24,348 nucleotides of DNA from the IMG/VR virus record IMGVR_UViG_3300007512_000194, positions 1-24,348 of that record. One strand, 5' to 3'. The stretch is from a virus. The position numbers were made by a program, and so were the translations under genes. Under the pieces are notes generated by a model that was not told where the DNA came from, did not search any database, and was given only the letters and a program-made list of their open reading frames with translations. This document shows, in pieces, positions 1 through 21,957 of this stretch (positions within the stretch are counted from its first letter, which is position 1; every line of letters starts with the position of its first letter).

Positions 1-218
1 TCTCCATAATTACGCTTGGGACACAAGATTCCGCCCCTGTGGTCTCCTACGTTATAATGAAAGAACATTTCCTTCAGTGGATCTCCGTCGTTAGTTGGAA
101 TGATCCGAATGTCGGTGTCGCCCTCGTCTGGTTTAAACCAAACAGAAGTAGAATCACCTTTGTTTTCACCGCGCAAAGTTGCGAGCTTGCGGCGCATAAG
201 CTCCATATCAATTGACAT
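1..218 (-). CDS. gp32: gp32-type single-stranded DNA-binding protein, N-terminal part (runs off left edge)
   Basis: An open frame of 72 codons starts at the ATG at 218 and runs off the left edge without a stop. The peptide begins MSIDMELMRRKLATLRGE and continues with VWFKPDEGDTDIRIIP and then GGILCPKRNYGE. A short basic helix followed by a WxxxxGxxxIRxxP strand and a Cys-Pro element is the pattern of the T4 gp32 N-terminus and start of its OB-fold core in T4-like phages. gp32 coats single-stranded DNA during replication, recombination and repair. The start is supported by AAAGGAG about ten bases upstream. The gene has its own sigma70-type promoter, so it is probably expressed earlier than, or independently of, the structural genes to its right. 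The zinc-binding and C-terminal acidic parts of the family cannot be checked because the gene is cut. Confidence 0.75.
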   Translation of the reverse strand, partial: MSIDMELMRRKLATLRGENKGDSTSVWFKPDEGDTDIRIIPTNDGDPLKEMFFHYNVGDHRGGILCPKRNYG

Positions 219-244: not shown

Positions 245-273
245 AGTATAACACACCCAACTTTAAGAGTCAA
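245..273 (-). promoter_or_regulatory. sigma70-type promoter for the gp32-like gene
   Basis: On the minus strand TTGACT (268-273) and TATACT (245-250) are separated by exactly 17 bases. A TG one base upstream of the -10 gives an extended -10 element, TGTTATACT. The ATG of the gp32-like gene lies 26 bases downstream of the -10, with a good ribosome binding site between. The -35 overlaps the stop codon of the upstream tubulin-like gene. Both hexamers are one base from the bacterial consensus, so recognition by unmodified host RNA polymerase is likely. Confidence 0.8.
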
Positions 274-1114
274 GTGTTTTTTGTTCTTGTACTACGTTTG
301 TGTGGGCAACGCAGAACCCAAAATCATCGTGCTCGGTTTCATAAATGGCATATGAAATCTTTTTGAAAGCATTCTTTGGTTTTTCCTTGAGCAAATCAAC
401 CAGCTTTTTGTGAAGGCCTCCCTCACTCGCTAATCTTTTGTCGTTTATACATATATAATAACACACTTCTCGCGGGGCGTCAAGCTCAAAAAACCATTTT
501 TCTTCAAGTTTTTCTACATCCAGCGCAGCTATGGCGCGAATGCGACTTGTGGCGGCCGGGGTCGATACTACACCAATCTCGGGCTCTGTAAACTCAAAGA
601 AATTTAAGTAATGGACCATCGAGAAAATCGTGTTATTCAGGGTATCATAATAGGTCTTAATAGGTATTTCTCCTATTACCTTTTCTAGAAGGGCGTTGGA
701 AATAATCGTGATCGAATTAAATAACCCAGAGCGCGCATATTCTTGCAGTACTGCAAAAGTAATCTTCTCATTTGTTTTGGGGGCGCCGGTCAACAACTCC
801 GTATCGGGCTGAATATAAAAGAGGTCTATTCGAGTGTGCCTAATTTGTTCTAAGATGCCTAGTCCATAATTAGAGCTAAGAGAGGCTCCCGTAATAAATA
901 CTTGTGTTCGTTCGCGAACATTTTTAAAAAACTCTGTGAGATCGGGTACATTCTGCTCATATTGATCTGGGTCTTCAAAATGTTTTAGCTTAAATTTATT
1001 TTTAGTATTTCTTTTAACTTTATTGTTTAAAGCATATACTTCATAATTGCTAATATCTTCAAACTTTTCTACAATAGCAGAACCGACGTTCCCGATACCG
1101 ATAATTGAAATCAT
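263..1114 (-). CDS. divergent tubulin/FtsZ-superfamily protein (candidate)
   Basis: A 283-residue protein. Seen in order: MISIIGIGNVGSAIVEKF (G6, G8 and G11 in a GxGxxG turn, like the FtsZ T1 region), then YEVYALNN (24-31, the position of FtsZ AINTD), then VFITGASLSSNYGLGILEQI (72-91, where FtsZ has VFITAGMGGGTGTG), then NEKITFAVLQEYARSGLF, then ITIISNALLEKV (135-146, like the tubulin IDNEAL or FtsZ IPN element), and then TYYDTLNNTIFSMVHYL. This order fits a small phage tubulin. The T4-loop signature GGGTG(T/S)G is not intact and the T7-loop acidic residue is unclear, so polymerisation or GTP hydrolysis may be altered or lost. Known phage tubulins (PhuZ, TubZ) position DNA or capsids. The start is supported by GAGGAG eight bases upstream. 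It overlaps the polymerase gene by four bases (ATGA), implying translational coupling. An alternative reading is a Rossmann-type nucleotide-binding protein. Confidence 0.5.
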   Translation of the reverse strand: MISIIGIGNVGSAIVEKFEDISNYEVYALNNKVKRNTKNKFKLKHFEDPDQYEQNVPDLTEFFKNVRERTQVFITGASLSSNYGLGILEQIRHTRIDLFYIQPDTELLTGAPKTNEKITFAVLQEYARSGLFNSITIISNALLEKVIGEIPIKTYYDTLNNTIFSMVHYLNFFEFTEPEIGVVSTPAATSRIRAIAALDVEKLEEKWFFELDAPREVCYYICINDKRLASEGGLHKKLVDLLKEKPKNAFKKISYAIYETEHDDFGFCVAHTNVVQEQKTLDS

Positions 1115-2295
1115 AACTTTAACTCCTCTATGCTGCCATAATCTTTACCGCATTTTAAATTAACTAAGAACTGGTCTAGTTTGTTCGTCGAGAACATTTT
1201 CTTTATCTCCGGTACTAAATGCCTGTCTTCATTAGCTAAATCAATCACAATTTCATCATGCACAACAAAGGCAATAAAAGATTTTTTATCTTCCAAGTAT
1301 TTATCGATTGCTACCGCTCGATCTAATACCAAATCTGCTGTGGTACTCTGTATAATATAATTCAAAGCTTTGCGTTTGTCAACCTTTATTTTTCTTTTAA
1401 ATGGAGTGTGTACAAATTCTTCGTCATACCACTTGTCGAGCACCTCTTCTCTCTTATAGCTTTCAAACTCATTGGCTGGTGCATCGCTGTTATATATCCA
1501 CGCAAAAAACTTTACCTTTGCTTCTTGCCGAGATATTTCCTCTCGGATTAAATTCTTAATGTGCCATTCGTGCACGTCTTCTTGAGGCTGGTCTTCGCCG
1601 GCTAGCGCAATGAACGTTCGTACCTCGGCAGCGTTATAGTCAAGTGACAATAGCCAGTCGTTATGGGGTTTTACAAGCTTCCTAAATTCCTTTTGAAGGG
1701 TCAGTATAGGAAACGAATTTGCTCGCGTTGTAAGGCGTCCTGTGACTGTTCCGAATAAATTGTAATCAACATGAGTAGGACCACTTAGCAGCCTCTTAAT
1801 TCGCATAGAATTTGAGGAAGAATAGTGCAACTTTTTACACCCCTCGTTCGTTAGATGAAGGTGCCGATACTTAAGATCGTGTAGGAGTGCCGATACATTC
1901 TTTAGATGATCATAGCACTCGGGTTTGGAATAGTTCTCTATGACATGAGCTGTCACTTTATTTTTAATCTCGCAAAACTTTTTAAGAAAATCTTGGGGTA
2001 CCAAATCAAAAATACAATGGTCGCGCATATTAACCTTGGCCAATTCAAAAGATTTTAGATAAGCTCGGAATCTTTTTTGGGCCGCCTTGAGTTCTTCAAG
2101 ATGTTTGGCCGGGCATGCTTCAGCCAAGGAAAGACCTGCGCAGTATAAAGAAGCATACTCTATATCTCTATTCTCTAGTCCACCCGAATACTTCCATGTA
2201 TGGGTGAGTTCGGTGGGGAAATCTTCATAATAAAGCTTACCCTCACAATAAACACCTACACATTCACTTTTATCATCTAACGTCTGAAATATCAC
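1111..2295 (-). CDS. Short family A DNA polymerase, polymerase domain only
   Basis: A 394-residue protein carrying the polymerase signatures of the Pol I/T7 family in the right order. FGTVTGRLTT (181-190) matches the TGRLSS element. Motif A is LDYNAAEVR, with D219 and E224. Motif B keeps R256, K260, F264 and Y268 of the RxxxKxxxFxxxY O-helix, but Asn replaces the usual Gly after the Tyr. NYIIQSTTADLV (312-323) matches the conserved helix before motif C, and motif C is VVHDEIV (H346, D347, E348). The catalytic carboxylates are present, so the enzyme is probably active. At 394 residues it is far shorter than Pol I (about 900) or T7 gp5 (about 700), and no 3'-5' exonuclease motif is visible in its first 150 residues. 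Translation probably starts at GTG 2295; the ribosome binding site is weak (CGAGCAG). It lies eleven bases after a gene of unknown function, at the end of the structural gene series. Confidence 0.8.
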   Translation of the reverse strand: MIFQTLDDKSECVGVYCEGKLYYEDFPTELTHTWKYSGGLENRDIEYASLYCAGLSLAEACPAKHLEELKAAQKRFRAYLKSFELAKVNMRDHCIFDLVPQDFLKKFCEIKNKVTAHVIENYSKPECYDHLKNVSALLHDLKYRHLHLTNEGCKKLHYSSSNSMRIKRLLSGPTHVDYNLFGTVTGRLTTRANSFPILTLQKEFRKLVKPHNDWLLSLDYNAAEVRTFIALAGEDQPQEDVHEWHIKNLIREEISRQEAKVKFFAWIYNSDAPANEFESYKREEVLDKWYDEEFVHTPFKRKIKVDKRKALNYIIQSTTADLVLDRAVAIDKYLEDKKSFIAFVVHDEIVIDLANEDRHLVPEIKKMFSTNKLDQFLVNLKCGKDYGSIEELKL

Positions 2296-2306: not shown

Positions 2307-3602
2307 TTATTTAAGATTTCTACGGGCTTTAATCCGGTGGACCTCGCGTTCGGTCTCACGCCAATCTCCGCCGTGTTTTCGCTCGTACTCATCTTTTGCT
2401 CTTGCATATTTATTATTATAACTCACTGAGCCAATATAGTCAAATGGTTTATTGAGAACATACTCAAAATTTTTAATAGCTACATTAATTTGCCCTGTGC
2501 GCATCACACCAATACAGTCATCTATGAGCCGTAGTTGTTCTGCTGGGGTGAAATGACTTTCCTCTTCCAAAAACCTTATCTGACAATATGTTTTAATATA
2601 ATATTCAGCACTTTTAAGAGAATTAAACTCTCCAAACGTATAGGAGGGTGCGTAAGTTACCAGAGGCGAAAGCTCATTACTATAAGCACAGATAGCTGGG
2701 GTCGTCGTATGCGGGGAGCGCACAACCAGAAAAAGATTATATAGATCTTTTTCAAAACGGCTTATATAGGCGACTGGCACACTACGAAAAATGGACCCTA
2801 GCGTTCCTGTGACACCAGAGGCGTGGCCGGCACGTGATTGAGCGTCCATCATTATCTTGGAGTCCAGGTCAGCTAAGAGGCGCCAAGGCGCCGACGAATC
2901 TACAATAAAACCATAAGAATTACACGTCTTTACATAAAAGTCCCAATTAAGGCTGTTATAAAAAAGATCAATCTTCTCTTGATCGTTGTTATATCCTAAA
3001 TCTGCAATTTCAACAACGAGGCCGCTAACGCGTGATGGACAATATTTACTTTTAGTCCAAGCCACTTGAGTGAATGGTGCCTGCAGCGCTGCGTCTGGGA
3101 GAACTTGAAGAAGGGCTGACATAAAATCATCCATTGTTAAAATAACAATACCTCGTTTTCTAAGCTGTGTCTTTAAGGTGTTGGCCATTAATCCAAAATA
3201 TTGGTCATATCGTATAGTAGGATTGGTATAGGCTTTATAAACTTTTAAATTAGAAAGGAATGGATCGTTGGGGTTGATCTTTCCGATCATTGCACATTTT
3301 TCAAATTGTTGGGCCATCTGCTCAAAGAGATCGACCACAAAATCAACTGCTTGATGCGTTTCATCCGGATTAACTAAAACTTTAGAATTAAATTTCTGGA
3401 GAGCGCTTTGTCTTACGATCATCGGAACATATTGTTGATCAACTTTTCCATACATATTAAGCTCTGCCAGATGATAGTTTATTAAATTATTGTGTGAGAC
3501 AGCCCCCTCAGTGCGAGCAGTAATAGATTTTCTATAATATTTAGTTCGCTTATAAAACAGCGATTTCAAAGGAATGGTGGTTTTTTTAACGTATTTGCTC
3601 AT
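2307..3602 (-). CDS. Unrecognised 431-residue protein, probably virion- or assembly-related
   Basis: I do not recognise this family. The protein has a basic N-terminus (MSKYVKKTTIPLKSLFYKR) and a basic C-terminus ending RRNLK, and no signal peptide or clear membrane segment. A distinctive central stretch reads YGFIVDSSAPWRLLADLDSK, followed by a Gly/Ser-rich passage (GHASGVTGTLGS). Most of the protein looks like a mixed helix-strand globular fold with many Tyr and Phe. It starts nine bases after the stop of the 1324-residue hub-like gene, with AAGGAAT as ribosome binding site, and is followed eleven bases later by the polymerase. The tight spacing suggests co-transcription with the tail genes, so a tail or baseplate role is the simplest guess, but this rests on position only. 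Confidence 0.75.
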   Translation of the reverse strand: MSKYVKKTTIPLKSLFYKRTKYYRKSITARTEGAVSHNNLINYHLAELNMYGKVDQQYVPMIVRQSALQKFNSKVLVNPDETHQAVDFVVDLFEQMAQQFEKCAMIGKINPNDPFLSNLKVYKAYTNPTIRYDQYFGLMANTLKTQLRKRGIVILTMDDFMSALLQVLPDAALQAPFTQVAWTKSKYCPSRVSGLVVEIADLGYNNDQEKIDLFYNSLNWDFYVKTCNSYGFIVDSSAPWRLLADLDSKIMMDAQSRAGHASGVTGTLGSIFRSVPVAYISRFEKDLYNLFLVVRSPHTTTPAICAYSNELSPLVTYAPSYTFGEFNSLKSAEYYIKTYCQIRFLEEESHFTPAEQLRLIDDCIGVMRTGQINVAIKNFEYVLNKPFDYIGSVSYNNKYARAKDEYERKHGGDWRETEREVHRIKARRNLK

Positions 3603-3611
3603 TTCTATTCC

Positions 3612-6600
3612 TTAAGGATTCACCACCTCTTCCTCGGCATTGTCATTTCGATTGGCTAAGGCGCTGTGACATTGTGCCGGCCCTGTTGTGGCTGCATCCG
3701 GGTTCCCTGTAGCTGTAGCTCTTTCAGCTTGAATTGCGGAGTTTTCTATGGCATTGACCCACTTAGCATAAATTTTAGATTCAGCTTGACCTGCTGCAAA
3801 AGTATGCGAAGATTTTACTATCATATAATAACCGCCAATACCTAAGTCTGTCAAGCCAAATTCTGTAGCAGTTCCTCCCGCTCTCATATCGGGCGCAAAG
3901 CCGCGCGGATCCACATATATGTAAGTCCCTGGATAGGTTTTAACATTAGAATAAGAATCGATTTCGGTATCGTACACGACACGCAATTGTTTTAAGCCGT
4001 CATAGCCATCTTGTTCGAATCTAACCTCTGCCAAACCACGCGAATCAGTTTTACTGAGTTTAATGTTTTTAATGAGTCCTTCGCCGCGGCCAAGTTGATA
4101 GTGAAAGATTCCGGCATTTTCATCATCTCGCTTGTTTCCTTGCATGCGCTCTGCGGGTGCAGTACGTCCTGCAAAATAAACAAAATAGTTGACTTCGTCC
4201 GCAACGTCGGGCGAAGAGATTGGGCCGCGGCCGGAGATGTTTAAAATGGGCATCGATAAGGTCGATAAGGAGATCCGAGCTTTACCCGCGGCTTTCATAC
4301 TAGCAGCGATTTCATCAAGCCCATCGGCTTGTTGCGGATAACTCGTTATAACTGCTTGATTAACCCGTACTCTTTGTTTAATACTCCAATCAAAACAAGT
4401 TTCATCGTTTAAGAAGTCTCTTATGAGCTTGTTAAACAAGTCATTAAGAAAACTCGTAAGAGTATACGTGCTTCTCTCTTTTTTCAACATCTGGTCCGCA
4501 AGATATTCCAGAAAATACCGAACTGAAATAGGTATGTCACCGAAGTTTACCATCGCACTCGCGCCTCCTAAGACTCGTGTACCTTGATCGCCTTGATTCA
4601 CAAACTCCACCGGGCCTAATAAAATTCTTAATTTTTTAAAATTCTTATAAGCCCGAGTATATTTATCAACTGCCATTGTAACTTGACAACGCGTAATATC
4701 TGAGCCTTCCGTTGACAGTCGATCCGAAAGACGGTCGCCCAACGTTGAAAGCTCCTTTTCGAGTGATTCTAAAATCGTATCGATCAAATCGCTTATATAG
4801 AAGAAGGAAAGGTTTATTGTTTCTGGATTCTCTACAAGAAGGGATGCCTTAAAAACATTCGCCTCTTCACTCTCAGAGCCGACTCCCGCATCTGCAAAAT
4901 TATAAGAGTCAAAGGCAGTCGCCATTTCGGCCGCTAGGCTAGCATCATTTTCACTATCGCTTTGTATTTGAAAAGCTTCTCCAGCACCCTCCCCCGCATT
5001 CCAATTGTAGAAAGGGCCGGCCGAGTTAAACTCTGCCACTTCGGACCACGGAAGTTTTATATAATAAATTCGTTTTTTGCCTTTTAGGTTTTCTATTAAA
5101 GAAGTAAGCGCTTGGCTTTTTTCTGCTGCAGCCCTGTCAGCGAGAGTTTTTTTAACGTTGCTTGCTTCTTCGGATTTGCAATTGCGATTATAGAACTCTA
5201 TTTGTAAATTTCTTATAATTTGTTCGATGGTTGTGTCAGTGCCGGCAAAAATATTAAATGCCGGGCTATCGTAATAATCGTCTACAAATGCCAGATATTC
5301 AATAGTAAAGATGACACGCCCCATATCATCAAATTCAAAATTATGAACGGTAGGCGTTAAGTTTAAAGTAGTGTAAGATTGATAAATGGCATCTCGTAAG
5401 TTGTTACTATTACGATTTGGATCGCTCGTGAGACTGCTCATCGTGCTCCAAGGACCTTGACCAGAGGGGCGCGCCCAGCCAACAACGGCCTTAAGCCTAA
5501 AGTTTAATTTATCTAAATTGGCTTCTTCAAGCGCCGAATGTTGCCCTATGGCGGTGACAAAACCTCCAGCAGCAATAGTCGCGCAATCATTGTTGCTCTG
5601 AGTAGGTTGTGTGGTCTTGAGAGCTAAATCACTATAACTAATCCCATTGTGCACATCAAATAATTCAGACATACTATTAGCAAAGATCTTTAAAGTGGCT
5701 TTAATGCTCTTTTTAACAGCAAAAGGATTATTTCCTTCATACGAAAAATCAAAGCTTTTTACTCCCACTCCAAAGCCGCGTTGTTCTTTTCTTTTCAACA
5801 CTTCTTGAAGATTTGGCGCGCCCCAAGACTTAAAAATAAACTCTTGTTCTGTGGTTTCGTTATCACTGTCGTAGGCTACTTTAAACAGCCGAATCATTGG
5901 CTGCAAGTGATTAAGGACATCACTTTTCATATTAAAGAAAACTTTTTGATCACCAGTCTGCGTGAGCTTGTTAAGAAACCCATAAGAGTCTCCATCAACT
6001 AATAAAGTAGAGTTGCCGGCTTCCCCTAAATAAGGCACTCCCTTGCCGGGAGTCGCGCCGGTACCGCAGCTAGCTGCTATGGAGCCAGAACGCGGCGCAG
6101 TGCTGTCCCGACGTTTTTTGTGATCAGCAATATCGGAAATATAAGAAAGTAAAAAGCATTGCTCATTAAAAATAGTTCGCTGGCGATCCATCGCAGCATA
6201 GGTAGAGGCACTATGGCTATCGTCAAGCATGTCGATCAGAGAATCATTAAGACCGTCCCATCCGTCGCCGCGGACCAGAGCCGCGGCATATGCAAGGGGC
6301 CCCTGACCGCCGCCGGCTAGCGCTACTATCGCCTCGTTATAATCTTGCTGAGCATTGGCAAAGATCCGGGATTGCTCCGACCAACACCCATAGCCCGCGG
6401 CTATGTTCCTGGCGAAGAGAGAGAACTGACCCAGGAGTCCCCCAAGATCGTTAAGAAGTTCTTCGTTGGCTGCTCTATTAATATCGGCCGCGATGAGCCT
6501 CCGCAAGGCAGCCCTTGCCTGACTAGCCATTTCGGCAAGTGTGCCATTCTTCCATGATCGTGCGCCGCGCGGGACTGTGACGCTGGGATCTGTTGCCTGC

Positions 6601-7586
6601 GCCTGGGAGAGTCCTTGGGCATAGCTATCATCGGCAAATGCGGCAACCTGATCGCGCGCGCCGGCGCCCGAGGTAAAGTAATAAGAAAGCTGTACCGCGC
6701 GCTCCCAGGCCGAACCCTCTCTTTGTTCGACCTCCTGGGCGCCCAGTTGAGCCCAAAAAGCTTGATGCGCGTGTGCGTGGAAGGTTCCAGCGTGCTGGAT
6801 GAGAGTTTTAATGCCTTTGCGCTGTTCGTTGGTGACATCGGTTCTTTGATACTCCTCTTTGAGAGCATTCGGCATCACTTGGCCGGTTTTGAGGGTGAGC
6901 GTGCCAGAATCATATTCGCTCTGTCCAAGCTCACCAGCGTCGCTCTCGCCGGTGACGTAATGGTGCCACTTAAGGCGTTCTCCCCGCGCGATATTGCCCG
7001 GCGTGCCAGAACGATGAGAGTCTGCACAAAATGCAGAATTTTCAGCCATTGAACGAGCATAAAAATAAACACCCCCAAAAAATTGTGCCGCCATTTGGCT
7101 ATCAACAGAACTATTTTTTAGAGAAATAGCTAATCTATTTGCCGCCGACACCTCTTCGCCATGGCGGGTGAACGGCGCCGAAGAGTCCGCGGCCTCCAGC
7201 GTAATATTGAAGGCGCCAGCCTCGGACGTCCAGGCTTCATCATGGCCGCGTGGATTATCAGTATCGGTAAAATTCTTATCCCAGATAACTTTAAGTTTTT
7301 GGTAAGATTCACAAGCTTTTTCTTCATTTAATTTGATTTGCCGTACACACTTCTCGACCTCATCATAATAAAGAGTCGCAGCGCGAATGTGTGCATCGAC
7401 GGCAGCTAGCGCCTGATCGACTTCATCGTCGTCCAGATTTCCCTCGATCCGTAAGAAGGCGCGCTTTTTTTCTATTGCGCTCGCATTCCTGTTGTCGCGT
7501 TGCCATCTTTCCCACTCGCTCATGCTCTGGTCTTCCGTTGCCGGGCCGCCGGTGATGTCCGAAAAATCGCCTCCTCCGCCAGCCAT
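3612..7586 (-). CDS. Very large baseplate-hub-like structural protein (1324 residues)
   Basis: This is the largest gene in the window. Position supports a baseplate hub: it follows tape measure, a tube-initiator-like protein and a LysM protein, the order seen in contractile tails before the hub/spike. The last ~200 residues contain strand-rich repeats and the element YYMIVKSSHTFAAGQAESKI (1253-1272), which resembles the strand pair at the end of hub proteins (gp27/gpD type, 'Y.V..v.H.....G..t.i'). Residues 548-640 and 740-790 carry similar strand patterns (FDFSYEG; VHNFEFDDMGRVIFTIEYLA). The first ~500 residues are helical, Ala/Gly-rich and coded by visibly more GC-rich DNA than the rest. The hub assignment is moderate; no lysozyme motif was seen. 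Start: ATG one base after the LysM stop, with GAGGG nine bases upstream. T4 gp27 is only about 390 residues, so this would be a heavily extended form. Confidence 0.5.
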   Translation of the reverse strand: MAGGGGDFSDITGGPATEDQSMSEWERWQRDNRNASAIEKKRAFLRIEGNLDDDEVDQALAAVDAHIRAATLYYDEVEKCVRQIKLNEEKACESYQKLKVIWDKNFTDTDNPRGHDEAWTSEAGAFNITLEAADSSAPFTRHGEEVSAANRLAISLKNSSVDSQMAAQFFGGVYFYARSMAENSAFCADSHRSGTPGNIARGERLKWHHYVTGESDAGELGQSEYDSGTLTLKTGQVMPNALKEEYQRTDVTNEQRKGIKTLIQHAGTFHAHAHQAFWAQLGAQEVEQREGSAWERAVQLSYYFTSGAGARDQVAAFADDSYAQGLSQAQATDPSVTVPRGARSWKNGTLAEMASQARAALRRLIAADINRAANEELLNDLGGLLGQFSLFARNIAAGYGCWSEQSRIFANAQQDYNEAIVALAGGGQGPLAYAAALVRGDGWDGLNDSLIDMLDDSHSASTYAAMDRQRTIFNEQCFLLSYISDIADHKKRRDSTAPRSGSIAASCGTGATPGKGVPYLGEAGNSTLLVDGDSYGFLNKLTQTGDQKVFFNMKSDVLNHLQPMIRLFKVAYDSDNETTEQEFIFKSWGAPNLQEVLKRKEQRGFGVGVKSFDFSYEGNNPFAVKKSIKATLKIFANSMSELFDVHNGISYSDLALKTTQPTQSNNDCATIAAGGFVTAIGQHSALEEANLDKLNFRLKAVVGWARPSGQGPWSTMSSLTSDPNRNSNNLRDAIYQSYTTLNLTPTVHNFEFDDMGRVIFTIEYLAFVDDYYDSPAFNIFAGTDTTIEQIIRNLQIEFYNRNCKSEEASNVKKTLADRAAAEKSQALTSLIENLKGKKRIYYIKLPWSEVAEFNSAGPFYNWNAGEGAGEAFQIQSDSENDASLAAEMATAFDSYNFADAGVGSESEEANVFKASLLVENPETINLSFFYISDLIDTILESLEKELSTLGDRLSDRLSTEGSDITRCQVTMAVDKYTRAYKNFKKLRILLGPVEFVNQGDQGTRVLGGASAMVNFGDIPISVRYFLEYLADQMLKKERSTYTLTSFLNDLFNKLIRDFLNDETCFDWSIKQRVRVNQAVITSYPQQADGLDEIAASMKAAGKARISLSTLSMPILNISGRGPISSPDVADEVNYFVYFAGRTAPAERMQGNKRDDENAGIFHYQLGRGEGLIKNIKLSKTDSRGLAEVRFEQDGYDGLKQLRVVYDTEIDSYSNVKTYPGTYIYVDPRGFAPDMRAGGTATEFGLTDLGIGGYYMIVKSSHTFAAGQAESKIYAKWVNAIENSAIQAERATATGNPDAATTGPAQCHSALANRNDNAEEEVVNP

Positions 7587-20166: not shown

Positions 20167-21957
20167 TTAGGTAGCAGATCCGGACTCACCTAAGAGACCG
20201 CGCACGATAACAAGACCGTACATATCGGGACGCACCATCTTCTTGGCGTACCGAGTCATCACGCCCTTGCGGGGCACGAAGTCTTCAGGGCCAAAGATAG
20301 TGGGTGTGGTCTGTAACGGCACATAAGGTGCGTATACATATCCGCTTTCAAGGAAAGAGGAACCACGACGTCCGACCAGAACCACGTTCCGCAGGAAGTA
20401 TGGGTCAACAATGACGTCAAACTTCTTGGAAAGAGATCCAGTCTTGACAGCACCCACGGTACCGGTTTCATCATCTGCCGTAACAGAGGCACGGAAACCA
20501 GCCGTGAATTCGAGAATGTTGGCAACTTCAGGTCCGCAGACGATGAAGTTAGCACCACCACGCAATGTCTTGCGATGGATCTGTGCGGAGACATCATTGA
20601 TAGTTTCAATGAGGGTCTCATACCACTCACTCACAGTACCGGTGAAGTCGGGAGCCTTAGTAGCTGCTCCAATTTCCACGCCACTCGTCTTATCGACAAA
20701 CAAACCGGGTGAACGTGACCAGTAATAAGTACCGGCAGTTGCACCACCAACGAGGTCACCAAGGATCTCGCGGTCAATCTCAAGAGCAACTTGCTCAGAG
20801 AGAATGCTGGTCAACTCAACCTCAGCATCAAGGTTGTGGTAGGCGTTAAGATCTTGTCCTAACTCCGGGGTCCACTTGGCCTTGAGCTTCTTGGTCATCG
20901 CGGTAACAGCCGTACTGTCCACCTTGATGTCGATCTCGGGGATCTCAGGGTTACCTTCGAGTCCCCAAACCGCAGCACCAACGACAGCACCCATAGCGGT
21001 TGCAGCATTGAAGTTGTCACGGATCGGAACCTGGGTTACCCAGTTGCCGGACTCGGCAATGTGTCCAACCGAGGCAGAGAGAGAAACGACAGTAAAGCGT
21101 ACACTCTCCACAGATTGAGCGGAATCAGCAGCCGTGACAACGCGTGTCAATCGACGTACCAGCGCGTAGCTGTCACCAACAACACCCGAAAGTGCAGTGT
21201 TCAATGCAGTGCTTGTTACCTCGAAAGCTGCGACGTTGTCGAAATCAGCGTCTTGGTTGATAAACAGCTGCTTTGTAAGGTCCCAAACACTAACCTTGTA
21301 GCCACTTCCAGACAACGCAAGAAGATCGGGATCATACTCGATATACTTCTTGTTTGCGTCCGTTTCACTACCATTAAGGTTGAACTGAGCGCGTACTGCG
21401 TACTGAGCCGTGGTGTTGGTTACGGAGCCACTCGGGGATGCATATGCATAACCGCGCGCGGCAGAGGTCCGAGGACCACCGAAGCCACTACCATCAGTGC
21501 TGACCAAGTCGACACCGCCAGTGATTTGTGAACCAACCTGATTCGTACCATAAATGGACTTGTCAGCAAGGTTACCAAACCGGTCGGTTTGTGGACCCGT
21601 ACTGTCTCCCAAATTGGGCGAGAACACGAAGTCCAGGAAGAAGATGAGACCCGAGGGTAAGCTCATCGGCTGAACACTAACAAGATCGTTAGCAATCAGT
21701 CCTGCAAAAACACGACGGACGATGGGGAACGCGACGGCTGCAAAGCCTTCAACATCACCACCAGACATCGTAGAGTTTTCACGAAGAAGCTCTTTAGCTT
21801 GGTTCTCAAGTAACCTAGCCATAGACTGCTTCTTACGGTCATTATCAAGACCCTCTAAAAGTCCTGTGCGCTCCCACTTTGATAACAAAGCGTGACCTTC
21901 TGCGCGCATATCACGGTTGACAACACCTTCGGTCAACCTATCAATAATACCAGCCAT
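20167..21957 (-). CDS. gp23: Major capsid protein (gp23 type)
   Basis: A 596-residue precursor (T4 gp23 is 521). FPIVRRVFAGLIANDLVSVQ followed by PMSLPSGLIF (77-106) is the gp23 pattern R......I..D...VQPM..P.G..F. YHNLDAEVELTSILSEQVAL followed by EIDREIL matches H..DA..EL..IL......EI.RE. FIVCGPEVANIL and, near the end, GYVYAPYVPLQ and FVPRKGVMTRYAKKM match the C-terminal pattern. gp23 forms the hexamers of the HK97-fold shell and is cleaved by the prohead protease. LLRE at 57-60 is a plausible cleavage site of the (I/L)xE type, close to the T4 position (65). The ribosome binding site is AAGGAG. The gene is 38 bases after the scaffold gene, in the T4 order 22 then 23. Confidence 0.93.
   Translation of the reverse strand: MAGIIDRLTEGVVNRDMRAEGHALLSKWERTGLLEGLDNDRKKQSMARLLENQAKELLRENSTMSGGDVEGFAAVAFPIVRRVFAGLIANDLVSVQPMSLPSGLIFFLDFVFSPNLGDSTGPQTDRFGNLADKSIYGTNQVGSQITGGVDLVSTDGSGFGGPRTSAARGYAYASPSGSVTNTTAQYAVRAQFNLNGSETDANKKYIEYDPDLLALSGSGYKVSVWDLTKQLFINQDADFDNVAAFEVTSTALNTALSGVVGDSYALVRRLTRVVTAADSAQSVESVRFTVVSLSASVGHIAESGNWVTQVPIRDNFNAATAMGAVVGAAVWGLEGNPEIPEIDIKVDSTAVTAMTKKLKAKWTPELGQDLNAYHNLDAEVELTSILSEQVALEIDREILGDLVGGATAGTYYWSRSPGLFVDKTSGVEIGAATKAPDFTGTVSEWYETLIETINDVSAQIHRKTLRGGANFIVCGPEVANILEFTAGFRASVTADDETGTVGAVKTGSLSKKFDVIVDPYFLRNVVLVGRRGSSFLESGYVYAPYVPLQTTPTIFGPEDFVPRKGVMTRYAKKMVRPDMYGLVIVRGLLGESGSAT

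Follow-up and report, generated by a model that had tools for sequence, protein, structure and literature searches.

An uncultured T4-type phage carries a gene for a compact protein that almost certainly adopts the tubulin/FtsZ superfamily fold, judging from predicted structures, and that has neither the T4 nor the T7 signature of this superfamily. We coined the name tubS for this gene. It lies in the window, which is the whole stretch of 24,348 nt analysed here, and replication genes flank it on both sides (Table 1). Phage tubulins are known chiefly in jumbo phages that form a nucleus (PhuZ) and in Bacillus/Clostridium plasmids or phages (TubZ). A tubulin family that lacks T4/T7 signatures, is missed by the profile libraries tried and keeps a constant position among the replication genes of uncultured T4-type phages appears to be new, as does the frequent company of TubS with a second, canonical tubulin, TubL. 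The accessible parts of the open-licence literature (including PMC7824862, PMC10299810, PMC13282480 and PMC12583498) give no account of such a family or pairing. Our explanation, which we hold tentatively and at rather less than even confidence, is that TubS, as a tubulin that binds nucleotide but hydrolyses it poorly, serves to scaffold and position phage replication.

Table 1. Features of the tubS locus and of TubL genes (window coordinates unless a locus is named; residue numbers are those of the window TubS)
Feature	Coordinates	Strand	Basis
gp32-type SSB, N-terminus, cut by window end	3..218	-	full-length copy L025:5897-6661 matches PF08804 gp32, 7.7e-16
tubS, predicted compact divergent tubulin/FtsZ-superfamily protein, 283 aa	263..1114	-	ORF; AlphaFold2 model; Foldseek; VIA
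T7 region, residues 176-182; no NxDxx(D/E)	569..589	-	sequence comparison and models
Helix H7 equivalent, residues 152-175, including N160 (635-637), H168 and N171	590..661	-	model and conservation
N140, first residue of helix H6 (140-147), at the FtsZ IPND guanine-contact Asn position	695..697	-	Asn in 125/130; profile register
T4-loop equivalent, residues 76-83 GASLSSNY, replacing GGGTG(S/T)G	866..889	-	follows strand 69-75, enters helix 81-90
T1-loop equivalent, residues 6-12 GIGNVGS (family GxGxxA/G)	1079..1099	-	G6 in 126/130, G8 in 130/130; end of strand 2-7 into helix 8-18
Family A DNA polymerase (polA), 394 aa	1111..2295	-	PF00476 E 9e-16; phrog_17; stop overlaps tubS start by 4 nt
Putative tubS ribosome-binding site, AGGAG	1123..1127	-	sequence reading
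gp23 major capsid protein	20167..21957	-	PF07068 E 1.2e-71
TubL (canonical phage tubulin)	L184:1297-2448, L186:1297-2448, L187:1318-2445, L188:1318-2445		PF00091 above cut-off

The tubS ORF begins with ATG and its stop codon occupies positions 263-265 on the minus strand. The number of its loci, its constant neighbours and its sequence constraint mark it as a real gene and not a chance ORF. It is under strong purifying selection, with dN/dS of 0.05-0.10 in the 7 of 11 pairs that had a finite dS (dS exceeded 2 in two of the 7). With the TubS sequence itself as query, 43 viral-contig loci were matched; alignment searches of IMG/VR matched 472 and 477 viral stretches, and a profile built from distant members matched 243 stretches in viral contigs. 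These four sets overlap and were left unmerged. This presence in hundreds of uncultured viral stretches suggests that a cytoskeletal-type protein serving phage replication may be far commoner than thought. For the sequence alignments and counts, one set of 182 loci was reduced to 175 proteins with intact ends and then to 86 below 93% identity. A second set of 272 ORFs, kept if they were 255-330 aa long and free of X, gave 180 distinct sequences and 122 below 85% identity. The 130-member set used for most residue counts below consists of the window protein, 121 of these 122 (one is the window protein itself) and 8 new sequences.

No TubS relative was found in 50,697 phage records with the window protein, L283, L284 or L286 as query; Aeromonas and Gordonia phage matches obtained from the same records with queries L039 and L339 were partial, had E values of at least 0.3 and were taken as chance. 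Bacterial and archaeal genome contigs yielded 55 pattern matches, none of them to a TubS relative. Pfam, PHROGs and NCBIfam gave no convincing match for TubS members. The library matches of family members were scattered over unrelated families; the strongest was to phrog_29734, a family without assigned function (E 0.00027 in 2 of 26 members), and others were to a DEAD helicase profile (E 0.00054, also 2 of 26) and to GARS_N (12 of 27, E 0.008 or worse). Matches to uteroglobin and cysteine-synthase among PDB sequences (E 0.03 or worse) were taken as chance. The Pfam tubulin model PF00091 was above cut-off for no TubS member; it matched 0 of 27 in one set and 2 of 26 in another (best E 0.1). 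As a yardstick, PhuZ of phage phiKZ is also under this cut-off, with 30.5 against the required 33 bits. A weak match of the same model lands on tubS in 4 of 16 contigs (E 0.007-0.018).

Structure prediction carries the assignment to the tubulin superfamily. AlphaFold2 was run without templates on the alignment of 86 TubS sequences, and the model of the window protein had a pLDDT of 89.0 and a pTM of 0.89. Its N-terminal part consists of strand 2-7, helix 8-18, strand 24-30, strand 69-75, helix 81-90 and strand 95-102, followed by helix 110-128, strand 134-139, helix 140-147, a long helix at 152-175, and C-terminal strands and a helix. Foldseek against the PDB gave its best match to FtsZ, and all 50 matches listed carry FtsZ or TubZ titles. 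VIA-align placed CetZ first (Z 22.9; 3.4 A over 262 residues), then TubZ (Z 22.2), FtsZ (Z 21.1) and tubulin (Z 20.8); here too all 50 matches listed are titled CetZ, TubZ, FtsZ, tubulin or microtubule. The listed PDB matches cover the model from residue 1 to at least 280 of 283. The second template-free model, with a pLDDT of 90.9, is of the remote family member L355, which has 300 aa and shares 29% identity with the aligned window protein; its scores were Z 24.0 with CetZ and Z 23.5 with TubZ, and the listed PDB matches run from residue 1 to at least 297 of 300. Among viral structure models, seven matched TubS with E values of 0.001 or less. The first of them is named 'FtsZ Cell division GTPase' and comes from an uncultured phage; FtsZ, Cell division protein and Tubulin each appear once among the names of the seven.

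A sequence-only reading of the window had proposed that this ORF encodes a divergent tubulin/FtsZ-like protein whose elements follow the tubulin/FtsZ order. Both proposals hold in the predicted structures: the two models match the superfamily end to end, the strand and helix order is retained, and every string on which the reading relied (GIGNVG, YALNN, VFITGASLSSNYGLG, LQEYARSG, IISNALLEKV and YYDTLNN) is present in the checked translation. A fold lacking the GTPase core and H7 would have spoken against the proposal; the predicted fold contains both, with H7 spanning the 24 residues 152-175, and has the C-terminal domain as well. Compared with FtsZ, TubS is alike in its end-to-end fold (VIA Z about 21, Foldseek E 1.5e-13), in strand and helix order, and in having Asn at the likely base-contact positions of H6 and H7. 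It differs from FtsZ in being only 10-16% identical in the alignments listed, with a length of 283 aa, and in lacking GGGTG(T/S), the T7 motif NxDxx(D/E) and, in the models, helix H8. Profile-profile comparison, which had been suggested as a check, gave support that is weak on its own. TubS matched a combined TubL, FtsZ and PhuZ profile with 33% probability, aligning T1 on T1, N140 on IPND and N160 on AAND of FtsZ, whereas each of the three taken singly gave 1-2%; the match is thus supportive without being proof.

The GxGxxG start of TubS could instead belong to an NAD(P)-binding Rossmann protein of the F420_oxidored or hydroxyacid-dehydrogenase type, and a confident match to an unrelated dehydrogenase was looked for. 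Sub-threshold Pfam and NCBIfam matches to residues 2-51 were obtained (E 0.11-0.16), and Shikimate_DH matched one of 27 TubS relatives with an E value of 0.0057. However, the matches of the window protein are confined to the first loop region and stay below the cut-offs (13.3 vs 21.6, 11.8 vs 25.1 and 12.1 vs 184 bits), and the predicted fold is that of tubulin along the full length of both models. Because both tubulin-fold models have superfamily matches in the PDB, we rejected the dehydrogenase-type Rossmann protein and give it next to no probability.

In FtsZ and tubulin, Asn residues in H6 and H7 contact the guanine base, the T4 loop holds the phosphate, and the T7 loop of the neighbouring subunit drives hydrolysis. 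In TubS the glycines of the T1 loop are conserved (Table 1). At T4, residue G76 is present in 127 of 130 members, and the signature GGGTG(S/T) in none of the 130, as the sequence-only reading had noted for the window protein. GGG occurs in the T4 region of 8 members and GG in 36. The T4 sequence in the clade of the window is GSSxSSNY or GASLSSNY, in which G76, S78, S81, N82 and Y83 are invariant (27 sequences). Distant members have loops like GGSGxISGASL, and one has GGGGKAS. Since the distant members keep more glycines, the loop was probably remodelled from a glycine-rich one. The sequence comparison thus indicates that the signature is altered and not decayed, as the altered T4 loop is itself conserved; the facts behind the earlier phrase 'degraded GTPase signature' stand, but 'replaced' describes them better. 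The T7 loop had been called unclear in that reading, and the motif NxDxx(D/E), even with Ser allowed for Asn, was found within residues 168-195 in 0 of 130 members (the string occurs elsewhere in the protein in 22 of 130). In neither the window model nor the L355 model is there a helix H8 between H7 and the next strands.

The base-contact positions appear to be kept. Besides N140 in H6, N160 of H7 is conserved in 129 of 130 members, as are H168 in 129 and N171 in 128; N140 and N160 sit where they would be expected in the model. The register of this pocket rests on the 33% match to the combined tubulin profile together with secondary structure. With the likely guanine-contact Asn residues kept and the T4/T7 motifs gone, it is fairly likely that TubS still binds guanine nucleotide, and its GTP hydrolysis is probably weak or lost, because the T7 motif and H8 are missing and T4 is remodelled from Gly to Ser/Asn. 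An altered nucleotide chemistry, as earlier proposed from sequence, is plausible, and the conserved loop GSSxSSNY may represent a naturally occurring tubulin whose nucleotide chemistry differs.

TubS could still form a cytomotive filament on its own, as PhuZ and TubZ do, which would move or centre the DNA of the phage, with GTP hydrolysis through unusual T4/T7 chemistry. This would agree with the fold matches, of which the top Z scores are to CetZ and TubZ, with the conservation of the likely base-contact Asn, with four large contigs that have TubS and no TubL (see below), and with an acidic residue somewhere in region 176-186 in 121 of 130 members. The T7-position motif is nevertheless absent from all 130 members, H8 is absent from both models, a single glycine is left across T4 columns 76-83 in 75 of 130 members, and the C-terminal tail of the window protein is short, with 11 residues beyond the last strand in the model. 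We consider such a filament unlikely.

The genomic location of tubS points to replication. The window belongs to a T4-type phage, as had been stated from the sequence: apart from the gp23 capsid gene it contains a PF12322 match (3.7e-19) and sheath, tube and baseplate PHROGs. A polA gene lies directly upstream of tubS in 170 of 170 loci with more than 900 nt of flank on that side (116 distinct tubS sequences), and the SSB gene directly downstream in 139 of 139 loci with the same flank on the other side (96 distinct tubS sequences); distinct sequences are given since some loci were taken twice from one contig. Around 80 more distant tubS loci, tblastn with the window proteins detected polA no more than 300 nt upstream in 35 of 64 and SSB no more than 400 nt downstream in 68 of 72. 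In the eight additional divergent loci L535-L542 it detected polA in 8 and SSB in 7. Of the 122 TubS genes, 110 have enough upstream DNA for this comparison. In 89 of these an upstream ORF of 200 codons or more runs into the tubS start, the overlap being 4 nt in 69; in 16 no such ORF was seen. The 394-aa polymerase apparently consists of the polymerase domain alone, as PF00476 was matched over about model positions 103-374 in the same locus of the 203-kb contig G001. A PF00476 scan found no second polymerase locus in G001. Of seven other contigs scanned, five had only the tubS-adjacent locus and two had none; one of these two, G025, has polA by tblastn. The full-length SSB copy listed in Table 1 lies in the 203-kb contig of L025.

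These data led us to propose a role, tentatively and with slightly less confidence than is given above to the explanation as a whole. The tubS product would be made together with the phage 394-aa DNA polymerase and SSB and would be a tubulin-type scaffold of the replication complex. It may self-associate, or join or cap TubL protofilaments where TubL is present. The assembly would tether and position replicating phage DNA, and in TubL-bearing phages TubL would supply GTPase-driven dynamics. The gene neighbourhood is a weak sign of a physical partnership of TubS with its neighbours' products.

The same neighbourhood fits another reading, in which TubS is a non-polymerising replisome accessory that reuses the tubulin fold, either as an adaptor for the mini-polymerase or SSB or as their nucleotide sensor. 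The overlap of the tubS start with the upstream ORF and the polA and SSB neighbours of divergent loci agree with it, and so do the clade-specific Q124 and R128 at the end of H5, invariant in all 122 TubS, together with H168 and N171 in H7. With T7 and H8 lost, TubS might just as well not polymerise. Such an accessory would not, however, explain why the two likely base-contact Asn and the T1 glycines are kept, as if the nucleotide pocket matters, and the frequent company of TubL would need another reason. We regard this reading as somewhat unlikely.

A third possibility, which the sequence-only reading had also raised, is that TubS acts as a decoy, binding the FtsZ of the host and so preventing division. 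Phages are known to target FtsZ, and a tubulin fold without catalytic loops could resemble a capping subunit. However, wherever the flank is long enough, tubS lies within the replication gene cluster; the family is also large and diverse, and many of these phages own a canonical tubulin that would be a nearer partner. A role inside phage replication is preferred over the decoy because of the replication-gene location and the second phage tubulin, and we find the decoy quite improbable.

This second tubulin, TubL, was above the cut-off of the Pfam tubulin model in five of six contigs of 78-203 kb. The four TubL proteins first aligned have 383 and 375 aa, and a set of 29 (93 sequences reduced to 65 and then 29 by the same distinctness and 85% identity filtering) ranges from 344 to 409 aa. 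The T1 loop of TubL is GVGGGG(G/N)KMA, the T4 signature GGGTG(S/T) is found in 29 of 29, and T7 is S/T-F-D-x-x-D in 27 of 29, which keeps both acids and has Ser/Thr for Asn. The N-terminal extension is acidic and has DF motifs. Profile comparison of TubL gave 95% with FtsZ and 0.2% with PhuZ. TubL was found in 241 stretches in viral contigs, and its member L187 matched nothing in the 50,697 phage records.

Among 24 contigs chosen for carrying TubS or TubL, 16 have TubS, 22 have TubL and 14 have both. All 12 contigs of at least 127 kb in this set carry one TubS and one TubL. No TubS was seen in eight of the 22 contigs with TubL, which measure 68-123 kb and may be fragments (two were rechecked), and two TubS contigs (68 and 78 kb) gave no TubL. 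When contigs were chosen by gp23 instead, the 80 loci listed included 8 contigs of at least about 50 kb; six of these 8 carry TubS and one carries TubL. No TubL was detected in TubS contigs G025 (187 kb), G033 (184 kb), G034 (132 kb) and G026 (127 kb) by three profiles, which included PF00091 and the 29-member TubL profile, the latter run without a positive control; G033 and G034 came from the distant TubS search. The idea that TubS and TubL form an obligate pair was dropped in view of these four large TubS contigs without TubL and the eight TubL contigs without TubS. TubS looks like the more widespread gene of a wider clade, with TubL added in some lineages, and the contigs are perhaps incomplete.

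A tubulin may have become a core part of the replication module in a large uncultured clade of T4-type phages. Where both tubulins occur, a hydrolysis-dead TubS, translated with the DNA polymerase, might co-assemble with a catalytically competent TubL, and this heterotypic filament of alpha/beta-like kind would carry viral DNA as it replicates. We consider this specific form of the proposal rather unlikely. Systems of two tubulins include alpha/beta-tubulin, BtubA/B and archaeal FtsZ1/FtsZ2. Like these, some of the phages have two different tubulins per genome, and here one of the two is catalytically impaired on sequence. In contrast to them, tubS and tubL are not neighbours (they are about 42 kb apart in G001) and not always together, and a heterodimer is only hypothetical. 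If true, a heterotypic TubS/TubL filament would be the first two-tubulin cytoskeleton in a virus; we know of no earlier one from any virus. The pair raises the question of whether a tubulin lacking the catalytic loop can work alongside an active partner, a matter relevant to the origin of the alpha/beta type of labour division. The archaeal FtsZ1/FtsZ2 pair is treated in the accessible part of PMC12583498.

PhuZ, TubZ and CetZ resemble TubS in fold and differ in other respects. PhuZ of nucleus-forming jumbo phages such as phiKZ is likewise a phage-encoded protein of tubulin fold. However, the C-terminal domain PF22334, which phiKZ PhuZ matches with 1.7e-37, does not appear among the listed family matches of TubS members, and the carrier of TubS is a T4-type phage. 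The chimallin model PF25677 was above cut-off in none of 8 large contigs, with a weak match (E 0.0034) in G003; this model is Phikzvirus-specific and a weak test. TubZ, the partition tubulin of plasmids and phages, shares the fold (Z 22-23.5) and has the signature loops that TubS lacks. In the TubZ partition system the DNA-binding adaptor TubR and the centromere tubC lie beside tubZ; the neighbours seen at tubS are polA and the gp32 SSB. CetZ, a group of archaeal shape proteins, scored highest in VIA with both models (Z 22.9 and 24.0) but was effectively tied with TubZ, which trailed by less than 1 Z; unlike TubS, CetZ is archaeal and cellular and its signature loops are intact.

Several other genes were noted around the two tubulins. 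Upstream of polA on the minus strand, positions 2307-3602 encode a 431-aa protein with no Pfam match at E 0.1, which is 29-43% identical in the relatives compared, the near-identical L025 aside. Between the T4-type structural genes and polA lies a 1324-aa ORF (3612-7586, minus strand) with 36-47% identity in the relatives compared, again L025 aside. At L025:7928-9040, close to a UvsX/RecA-like ORF, is an ORF that starts with MKTPLRYPGGKSRAVN and has a counterpart in only part of the relatives compared; its motif suggests an adenine-specific DNA methylase. In L184 (23-1300) and L186 (197-1300) an ATPase gene precedes tubL, and its stop overlaps the tubL start. From its sequence this gene reads as SbcC/Rad50-like, and a gene resembling that of L184 precedes tubL in 44 of the 80 loci whose flank is long enough.
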